Positions 1,508-52,113 of a stretch of DNA of 64,000 bases are shown here, in pieces. Within the stretch, counting starts at the first letter, position 1, and every line of letters starts with the position of its first letter. Location of the stretch: the NCBI GenBank assembly GCA_030038235.1, contig JASHPE010000058.1, positions 1-64,000 on the forward strand, in the 5' to 3' direction. The translations under genes and the position numbers were made by a program. This DNA is from Terriglobia bacterium (lineage in GTDB: Bacteria > Acidobacteriota > Terriglobia > UBA7540). The notes under the pieces are model-generated. The model searched no databases, had not been told where the DNA came from, and saw only the letters and a program-made list of their open reading frames with translations.

Positions 1508-1512
1508 TAGGC

Positions 1513-1770
1513 GTGAGTAATCCATCCGACTCCCTCGCAGCTTCTCAGTTGGCTGCCTCTGCGCAATCGTCCGGTGCAACCAGTCCCGTGAGCGCCCATC
1601 GCCTGCGCCAACGCTGGATGAGGCGACTGGCGGAAGCGGTCGGAAGTTCCCATCGGACGCCCTGCCGAGGTGCGACGGCAGATTGAGGATCAACTGGCGC
1701 TTTTCGGGGCCAAGCCTCGCACTCGAAAAGCCGATAGAAATGAGGCCTCCAAAGCCAACCAAACCCATTA
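1513..1770 (+). pseudogene. Small ORF interrupted by an apparent frameshift, ending in repeat A1
   Basis: Frame a gives [12 protein letters not shown]...[17 protein letters not shown]; continuation [36 protein letters not shown] is in another frame; switch near 1650. Confidence 0.35.
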
Positions 1771-2062
1771 GGCTTAAAGGCAGCAGAATGAGCAAGATGA
1801 GCCGGAATCGGATCCGTCCAAACCCATTGCAGGTATCTTCATTGTTTTCAGCCGATTACGCGCAAAAAACGCCCCTTTTTTGCAAAAGGATAGTTGCGCC
1901 GCGCTCTCCAAAGCCACCAAACCCATTGAGGTTAACCCTCACACCATCTGTAGCTTACGCTAGAATCGGCACTCTCCAAACCCATTGTGGTTATCTCCAG
2001 CTTTTTCAGGGGTTTAACTGCCAAAAAAGGCCTGTTCTTGAGCAAAGGATAGTGGCAAGGGT
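1745..2062. repeat. Composite tandem repeat locus A (two ~158-bp units) upstream of recA
   Basis: CAAACCCATT at 1760, 1819, 1918, 1977 (59, 99, 59 bp steps); odd sites TCCAAAGCCA(A)CCAAACCCATT, even sites CCAAACCCATTGYRGKTATCTYC. Confidence 0.9.
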
Positions 2063-17840: not shown

Positions 17841-18551
17841 GCATCGTGGGGCGTTGTGATGCAGGCGTGATGGCGCACGCCTCGTGGTGCACGCATCCCT
17901 GCGCGCGTTCCCCCAAAGCCGACAGCCATCGCAGGCTGGAAGCCTGCACCACAAAACCGGCCGTGACCAAGACGGCCCCGCCCGCGTTGGGTTCCAAATC
18001 CGCAATCGGACCGACATTTCCGTATCTTCCTTGTTTTCTGTAACATTCCGGCTTTCTTTGTGTTTAATCGCCCGGCGCCGGGCCTCCCCAGCTTCAACTC
18101 GCGCTCGAGGGCTCCCGGCACCAGCCGGCGCGATTGCAGGTTCAGCGCAGAACGGAACTTCCCGGCCTGGATGCGCGGCTCGGTGGATTTCACGGTGTTC
18201 AGACGACGGGTAGCGGTGCAGCGGGAGGCACGGGCGGGATCTCCGCGGAGGGACATAAGTTAACCTCCAAGCGCCGGCGAGTGTTTACCGGCCGGGCGCG
18301 AGTGGATCAATGCTGTTTATGTCGTAGCGGCGCGCGCCATCCGGCCTATTTGGGGCGGGGCGAATGAAGGTCGAGGGAACCCGGAATAATTCAGAAAACA
18401 GGATGCTTACAAGAATATCGCTTCGAACGCAGCATTTGCCGCAGGGGAGCCCGCAGAACCGCCGGCTCGCCACTTGCCACTCGTCACTGCTTTCGTCCGG
18501 CGTGTGTTATGATCGCTTTACGTCAGCATAGGGAAAACGAGCGATTTTCAG

Positions 18552-31800: not shown

Positions 31801-31890
31801 GGTAGTGACTCAGTCTGACGTATCACGGGCGTCTCGCCCGTGAATGCTCACGGCCAAGATGGCCGTGATACATCAAACTGAGTCACTACC
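31801..31890. repeat. 90-bp Y-shaped palindromic element
   Basis: Outer arms GGTAGTGACTCAGTCTGACGTATCACGG / CCGTGATACATCAAACTGAGTCACTACC (26/28); inner hairpins CACGGGCGTCTCGCCCGTG and CACGGCCAAGATGGCCGTG. Confidence 0.93.
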
Positions 31891-32009
31891 GGTCTGCACA
31901 CCTGCTTGACTTTTGGCTCCGACTGGTACTACCTTCTAAATATCAGCTCAAGAAAGCGACACGAAAGCGACCAAGGCCGCTCGATTGCCGCGCGTTTGAG
32001 GTGCGGGCA

Positions 32010-32690
32010 ATGTCTCTGCGATTCACCTCCGTCACTCCCAGTTCCCTGGCCGCTCGCCGGTCGAATGCCCTTAAATCCACCGGACCGCGCACCCGGCGCG
32101 GCAAGGCTCGCGTCTGCCTGAACGCTCTGAAGCACGGCCGGTATGCCGTCCTCGTGGGGCGCTCGGCGCGGCTTCGGGAGAGGCTCTTCGAAGCCGGCCA
32201 GACCCAGCAAGAAGCCGTTTACGGCGCCGTCCGATCCCGGGTGGTGCAGGCCATTGGCGCCCAGGACCCGGCCTCGCGGCGGAAAATCGACGAGATCACG
32301 CTGCGCGTCTGGTGCCTGACCTTGCGGACGCACCCTGTGGGAACAAAGCTGGAAAGTCCCGCAGATTCAGCAAGTAAGAGACCTCGGGTGTCGACCGAGT
32401 GCAGATTCGCCCCCCGGCGGCACACGATTATCGACCGCTGGACGCGCGCCGCGGTGGTTTTCTGGTGCCAGCGGCGTCGCCGGCTGACGGGTTGGCCCGC
32501 CGGCTACCGTTTGTACGAGGGGGCAGTGCGCTCTCTGTGGTACCGGATCGCCAAACCGGGAGCGTTGGAGCGCTATCGGTACAAACTGCTGGCCAACGGC
32601 GATCCGGACCGGACTCAGGAACCATGGAAGAGTCTCAAAGGCGATGAATGGAGAAAATTGCCGCGGCCAAAGGGCTCGCCGTGGGGATGA
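32010..32690 (+). CDS. Hypothetical protein with RRSNALKSTGPRTxxGKxxxxLNALKHG motif
   Basis: SLAARRSNALKSTGPRTRRGKARVCLNALKHGRYAV near N-terminus. Confidence 0.55.
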   Translation: MSLRFTSVTPSSLAARRSNALKSTGPRTRRGKARVCLNALKHGRYAVLVGRSARLRERLFEAGQTQQEAVYGAVRSRVVQAIGAQDPASRRKIDEITLRVWCLTLRTHPVGTKLESPADSASKRPRVSTECRFAPRRHTIIDRWTRAAVVFWCQRRRRLTGWPAGYRLYEGAVRSLWYRIAKPGALERYRYKLLANGDPDRTQEPWKSLKGDEWRKLPRPKGSPWG

Positions 32691-51156: not shown

Positions 51157-51505
51157 AGCGTATTATCGAGTTTAACGCGACTCGGGTGGCATGAGCCCAC
51201 CACAAACTGTAAGACCGTGGCGCGAATTCAACCGAAAGTCAAGGGTCTCGTGAACAAGAGTTCAATCAGAACACACCATCCCCTGGGCTTCGGTTCCAGC
51301 GGCGGCGAACATCACCCCCGTTGGCGGAGCGGGCGGGCTGGCGCGGGGTCGAAACCCCGGCTCGTGAAAAAGCAGCCGCCTGCGCCAGCCCGCTTTTTTG
51401 CTTGACATCTCGACCACAGTATGATAAGAGTAATATTTACATGTCAATCGGATTGAGCCTCGCTCATTCCAACGGCTCCTCGCCACCTACCGGACACCGT
51501 CGTGC

Positions 51506-51816
51506 CTTCCAAAGCCAACCAAACCCATTGCAGTTAACTGGCGTGGATTCAGTGGGTTACGTCATAAACTGGGACTGCCAAACCCATTGCGCTTATCCCG
51601 AGTGTTTTCATCAACTTAACCCCGAAAAATGGCCCCTTTTTCGCAAAAAGATAGTTGTCCGCCGCGCTCCAAAGCCAGCAAACCCATTCCAACTAACCTC
51701 AACGTATTCAGTGGCTTATACTCGAAATGGCCTGCGCCAAACCCATTGCAGCTATCTCCTTCTGTTTCAGTATCTTAAGCCAGAAAATCGCACGCTTTTG
51801 AGCGCAAGATGGCCGT
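51506..51816. repeat. Composite tandem repeat locus B upstream of ilvB, same family as locus A
   Basis: CAAACCCATT at 51520, 51579, 51679, 51738 (59, 100, 59 bp steps). Confidence 0.9.
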
Positions 51817-52113
51817 TCGTAGTGTCGGTGCCGTCCCATGAGCTCAGTCATCAGTTGGTCAGGCGGTCAGGACGTCAGTTCGTCAGAGTTCTCAGTCACC
51901 AGGGATGGGGCGGGCGCTCGGCGGTCACTGGGGCGGCCAAGAGCCGAAAATGTGGTCGGAACGAAGCTGGAATCTCCAACCGATTCAGCGACTTGTCCCG
52001 AAGACTTCGCCCTCTTTGGCTGTCAACTGTCAACTCCCTTCAAAATCCACTTTACCTACCGACCGGTCGGAAGGTATTATGATTGGGTCAGAATTGAGGG
52101 AGAAGGTTGAGCC

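Follow-up and report, generated by a model that had tools for sequence, protein, structure and literature searches.

A paired-decamer repeat upstream of ilvB in a Terriglobia bacterium is probably a reduced member of a family of dispersed, mobile-type elements

A ten-nucleotide motif recurs at strict intervals upstream of ilvB in the stretch of DNA analysed here (64,000 nucleotides of one contig; referred to simply as the window), and the same layout is found upstream of recA. What kind of sequence holds such spacing while the letters between the motifs vary? An earlier, sequence-only reading had taken the geometry to be under selection, as phased binding sites or as RNA structure. We followed the repeat through this genome (G000), through a genome of the same genus (G001) and through more distant ones.

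Results

Core decamers and unit geometry

The decamer CAAACCCATT, which we call the class I core, was found upstream of ilvB at exactly the four positions given in the sequence-only reading, with a spacing of 59, 100 and 59 nucleotides (Table 1). The layout said to be repeated upstream of recA was recovered in its 59-bp spacing within units, but the period there is 158 and not 159 (spacing 59/99/59). When the two loci were aligned, the blocks were seen to follow the same order in both, as had been claimed. Allowing up to one mismatch, the window holds 12 matches to CAAACCCATT against 1.95 expected, and no shuffle reached 12. Genome-wide, single decamers numbered 101 (reversed control: 1). In a search with a gap of 40–60 nt, 39 exact pairs were found, and none with the reversed pattern.

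Random spacing was not found in the genome-wide check; the interval is 59 in nearly all units. Among 49 half-pair units in the regions cut out around decamers, a few are spaced 57 or 58 and the rest 59. The blocks TTAA, TCAG, TATC, TTTTCAG, TTA and AAAAA-GGCC-TTTTT persist between the cores amid variable sequence. Within each unit the 10-nt cores form a fixed array: core 1, core 2 at +59 from it and, about 10–11 nt upstream of core 1, a further core or half-core. The claim that geometry is conserved while the intervening sequence has diverged is borne out, with strong support, and agrees with phased binding sites. The near-identical repeats of tens of bases that mark a CRISPR array are absent, as only the 10-nt cores are invariant and the spacers themselves hold conserved blocks. 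A literature search with the decamer returned no dispersed bacterial repeats among the matches listed.

Table 1. Features of the ilvB-side and recA-side copies in the window, and core arrays in other phyla
Feature	Position or locus	Strand	Basis or remark
Whole ilvB-side copy, B subfamily	51391..52020	+	Extent of similarity to other copies, blastn
Putative promoter-like site TTGACA-N17-TAAGAG, element 5' end	51402..51430	+	Sequence; -10 weak here, stronger in sister copies
Open frame, from ATG after the promoter-like site through both ilvB units	51441..52082	+	ORF listed from upstream TTG at 51321
ilvB unit 1, class I	51508..51658	+	cmsearch, 104.4 bits
ilvB unit 1 core 1, CAAACCCATT	51520..51529	+	Half-core CAAAGCCA at 51510
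ilvB unit 1 core 2	51579..51588	+	+59 from core 1
A-tract/GGCC/T-tract block and GATAGTTG, end of ilvB unit 1	51619..51658	+	Alignment; without covariation
ilvB unit 2, class I	51667..51815	+	cmsearch, 91.4 bits
ilvB unit 2 core 1	51679..51688	+	CAAACCCATT site
ilvB unit 2 core 2	51738..51747	+	+59 from core 1
3' module with second-type core (AACGAAGCTGGAATCT...GATTCAGCGACTTG)	51960..52000	+	Found downstream of units in most elements
Decayed STGPRT gene remnant, recA-side copy	1512..1771	+	tblastn, 64% over 36 aa; ORF 1622-1771
recA-side unit 1, class I	1748..1897	+	CAAACCCATT cores at 1760, 1819; cmsearch
recA-side unit 2, class I	1905..2056	+	CAAACCCATT cores at 1918, 1977; cmsearch
AACAAACCCATT-like core arrays	Thermoflexales L132, L133, L135, L176
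AACAAACCCATT-like core arrays	Phycisphaerae L117, L130, L145, L153, L154, L174

Extent of the element and its open frame

The interval first proposed for the ilvB repeat, 51506–51816, covers the units but is too short for the element, since homology spans from about 51391 to about 52020. By blastn, four copies (L060, L061, L062 and L063) match the ilvB copy from about 51391 or 51421, and two others (L064 and L067) match it to about 52020. The leader differs by subfamily, and the promoter-like site stands at a subfamily-specific fixed distance upstream of the first unit; in many G001 copies it reads TTGACA-N16-TATAAT, identical to the consensus at 12 of 12 positions, about 127 nt upstream of the unit. 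The second-type core of the 3' module is AAGCTGGAATGT-like. Exact sites for this core number 23 in G001 and 7 in this genome, and three AAGCTGGAATGT second-type cores lie upstream of recA in G001 (L210; at 118, 283 and 339), where this genome has CAAACCCATT units.

In many copies, the frame starting at the ATG after the promoter-like site is open through the units. Some frame is open in 67 of 78 class I units, against 26.7 in column shuffles, which ignore the relatedness of the units; in simulated drift with 12 changes, only a fraction of 0.60 of the units would stay open. The excess of open frames is suggestive. Five B copies have no stop in the frame, with a pN/pS of about 1.1. Such openness without amino-acid conservation would fit translation that protects the transcript. 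A conserved protein product of the units was rejected on account of that same ratio and of the half-units, which read the core in different frames.

A gene fused to the first unit

Full-length members carry a gene whose stop codon is overlapped by unit 1; it encodes an uncharacterised protein of about 230–270 aa, here named the STGPRT protein after its N-terminal signature NALKSTGPRTxAGK. Two copies of the same subfamily, L073 and L079, carry a gene of about 230–245 codons that ends inside unit 1, the last codons (SKPNQTH or SKANQTH, stop included) being part of the unit. In the G001 copy L351 the gene ends KPKANQTH-stop inside unit 1, and the class II copy L277/L318 (described below) ends SEPERTRQA-stop inside its own unit 1. 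The remnant on the recA side likewise ends EASKANQTH-stop inside unit 1, and the recA copy looks like a reduced member of the longer element.

The dN/dS between copies of the STGPRT gene is 0.19–0.32; hence the gene is under purifying selection as a protein. No relative of the protein was detected in Pfam, NCBIfam, PHROGs, PADLOC or PDB sequences, and so none that is a known nuclease, transposase or nucleic-acid-binding protein in those databases. Its AlphaFold model was poor (pLDDT 52) and gave no fold match.

It may be noted that the window contains two further sequences of this kind. One is an STGPRT-signature gene of another subfamily (SLAARRSNALKSTGPRTRRGKARVCLNALKHGRYA) at 31869–32690 (+), with no class I or class II cores in the short stretch past its stop. 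The other is a decayed remnant at 18089–18253 (-), which shares 69% identity with the L079 protein across 55 aa.

Two core classes on one scaffold

A second class of unit, seen in L277/L318, has the same scaffold and the same 59-nt spacing but the core GCGAACCCGA (class II). Of 105 classifiable units, 83 were I/I and 22 were II/II, and none was mixed. This count comes from 114 aligned matches, 107 of which were long enough for a tree; two of the latter had core 2 mutated beyond the class rule. When the core columns were masked, the tree placed the class II units in a main clade and also, some of them, among the class I units of the B subfamily, and the branches that have support split class II into two or more separate scaffold lineages. 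At L066, one class II unit stands beside two class I units and has its leader and scaffold text in common with class I copies. The scaffold is retained when the cores change, and the cores change together, an agreement across the unit that is observed directly. Shared ancestry inflates the concordance count, so that the safe statement is of at least two coordinated changes with no exception; the independent swaps may be just two.

Dispersal and comparison with relatives

A model built on sequence only found at least 73 units in this genome, the assembly of which is fragmented into 481 contigs, and 34 in G001. It found no convincing unit in 39 other relatives, with two marginal matches only. 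For L066, an empty site with both flanks on one G001 contig was found: the interval there measures 672 bp and has no units, whereas here three units lie in 1054 bp. In G001, the 662 bp available upstream of recA have no class I or II units, with one marginal partial match to the model (13 bits), and no units precede the G001 orthologues of the genes downstream of L071, L074 and L075. The ilvB locus is partly covered in G001, where the contig ends about 190 bp upstream of the gene. Such comparisons of orthologous loci point to the gain or loss of whole elements, and absence from G001 could reflect loss as an alternative to gain.

Records of plasmids and phages gave no match. A repeat search of the two window loci returned direct repeats, with no pair of terminal inverted repeats bounding an element in those two regions. 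Element ends are ragged, and no target-site duplications were found; in the one comparison with a two-flank empty site (L066 against L360), the intergenic sequences were too diverged to read one.

Proposed origin of the ilvB repeat

We consider it probable that the repeat at ilvB belongs to a dispersed, mobile-type family resembling BOX and REPIN elements, of which it is a shortened copy, and that its decamers are candidate sites for recognition by a single partner acting in trans, of which the STGPRT protein is the most likely. The partner gene, the second core class and the mobile-element character had all escaped the sequence-only reading. The longer form would consist of a promoter, the STGPRT gene and then at least one unit, with the first core overlapping the stop codon. 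Shorter copies, such as that at ilvB, retain the units, a short open frame and a promoter-like sequence at the 5' end, and would have arisen from the longer form by internal deletion. The cores may be bound, as DNA or as transcript, by the one partner, for which the STGPRT protein is our best guess, and this binding would be the route by which copies are recognised and spread. That the elements move, and that they are transcribed, we infer. Points against the proposal are the lack of a database relative for the STGPRT protein and its poor structure model, the ragged element ends, the empty plasmid and phage searches, and the Phycisphaerae and Thermoflexales genomes that have core arrays but gave no match to the gene profile.

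A bolder version of this proposal can be offered tentatively, and we hold it to be possible but doubtful. It would be an undescribed bacterial mobile element in which the STGPRT protein recognises short CRAASCC cores, which follow one another at a fixed interval at the 3' end of the gene encoding it, and in which core and protein co-evolve into matched specificity classes and spawn short derivatives. Most dispersed bacterial repeats lack a known agent of spread; in this family a partner gene of unknown function is joined to the repeat in the DNA itself. With two matched classes of core sharing a scaffold, whether each protein recognises its own core only can be tested directly. A positive result would assign a function to a protein family so far annotated as hypothetical and nothing more, and would reveal a new way for repeats to spread. 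The family may also explain the assembly breaks at many of its loci.

Alternative explanations

The repeat could instead be a regulatory leader or upstream array, with phased sites through which a host transcription factor or RNA-binding protein regulates the genes downstream. The fixed spacing and the promoter-like sites at fixed distances are as such an array would have them, and the elements are co-oriented with the downstream gene in 26 of 32 callable cases (by our own codon-usage gene caller; the background is 23 of 49 window genes on the + strand). However, the gene after six of the elements runs on the opposite strand, the loci checked in the sister species have no elements, and this explanation accounts for neither the two core classes nor the gene overlap. 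Shared regulation of the downstream genes, a check proposed in the sequence-only reading, is not supported as the main explanation, because the neighbours are functionally diverse, the orthologous loci checked lack elements, and the element lies upstream of native conserved promoter regions that recA and ilvB have kept. The orientation bias leaves room for a regulatory role, and we regard this explanation as unlikely, though it survives best among the alternatives.

Somewhat less likely again is a structured or antisense non-coding RNA family whose cores are sites of RNA pairing. Promoter-like sites upstream, a strand bias with the cores on the sense strand, and a frame kept open as if translation protected the transcript would all suit such an RNA. 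The structural tests, however, went against it, and they lend no support to the proposal that RNA structure explains the conserved spacing. RNAalifold gave no consensus pairs on 49, and then on 40, aligned units. The sole hairpin candidate, A-tract/GGCC/T-tract, showed covariation no better than shuffles, and the Rfam covariance models did not match the element. No exact complementary, guide-like core site was present within four full elements; class I loci held two class II anti-core sites with one mismatch each, which we judged to be chance.

Spread by gene conversion or recombination alone, in which case the cores would be relics of a coding repeat that closed the STGPRT gene and would owe their conservation to chance, is improbable. 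In its favour, the cores overlap the 3' end of that gene, core-like repeats lie inside the coding end of some other STGPRT genes (L274, L278) and the frame stays open. Against it, conservation of the cores extends to every base, including those at third codon positions, the two half-units read the cores in different frames, the pN/pS is near 1.1, and copies occupy many unrelated intergenic sites.

Comparison with known repeat families

Putative mobile promoters are promoter-bearing intergenic sequences that have been propagated to many loci upstream of genes. The family favoured here, that of mobile-type elements with a partner gene, shares the promoter-bearing intergenic sequence at many such loci; its conserved part, however, is the paired-core array with the partner gene, and native promoter regions remain downstream. 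The short copies resemble MITEs in looking like internal-deletion derivatives of a longer gene-carrying element, but no known transposase is present, and terminal inverted repeats or target-site duplications were not found, the ends being undefined.

BOX elements of Streptococcus pneumoniae have the form boxA-boxB(n)-boxC; comparative evidence points to their mobility, certain copies provide a gene with its stop codon, and larger ones hold open frames (PMC3049150). The present elements share with BOX a short, modular build, a dispersed intergenic location and tandem middle modules that vary in number. Unlike BOX, which is predicted to fold as RNA stem-loops, the present units show no fold, and they differ further in their paired cores, which swap as one, and in the partner gene that overlaps their first unit; the two were compared by description, the host here being an acidobacterium and not a streptococcus. 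REPINs are inverted repeats that form hairpins, and RAYTs are Y1 tyrosine transposases (PMC3116915). That system and the present family both have numerous short copies that are non-autonomous and are linked to a gene associated with the element, groups of repeats being matched to specific partner genes (PMC3116915). The present cores, in contrast, are direct repeats without consensus pairs in 40 units, and the linked gene product has no transposase relative in Pfam, NCBIfam or PDB. The family would work like BOX or REPIN elements, yet the defining structural features of both are lacking.

Cores and the STGPRT gene in distant genomes

A distant acidobacterium (L102, genome G291) gave 29 profile matches to the STGPRT gene, one of them weak. 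The 3' parts of 28 of these genes together hold 50 CRAASCCA cores in sense orientation and 1 in antisense, and 25 of the 28 have at least one core at the 3' end. Cores within a gene agreed at the A/G position more often than in shuffles (0.79 against 0.49, p 0.0012); agreement at the C/G position was not above shuffles. An STGPRT gene is also present on one IMG/VR contig (L392), where sense cores lie +10, +79 and +89 from its stop. In other phyla, AACAAACCCATT-like cores lie on one strand, in pairs or arrays with a spacing of about 50–70 nt, in genomes of Phycisphaerae and Thermoflexales where a profile search found no relative of the STGPRT gene. If true, these arrays and the IMG/VR contig would extend such an element beyond Acidobacteriota.

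Sequences adjacent to the elements

A 15-nt inverted repeat (51333–51393; 93% complementary, 31 nt between the arms) lies upstream of the ilvB element and is followed by a T-run; it is a possible terminator. The sequence GGGGACACCGGCGCT(A/C)CAGCA recurs near several elements (flanks of L063, L073 and L279) and is possibly a separate dispersed repeat. Just upstream of ilvB, at 52053–52076, there is a near-perfect palindrome, TACCTACCGACCGGTCGGAAGGTA, which is largely kept in G001 and which, at a guess, resembles a TetR-type operator.
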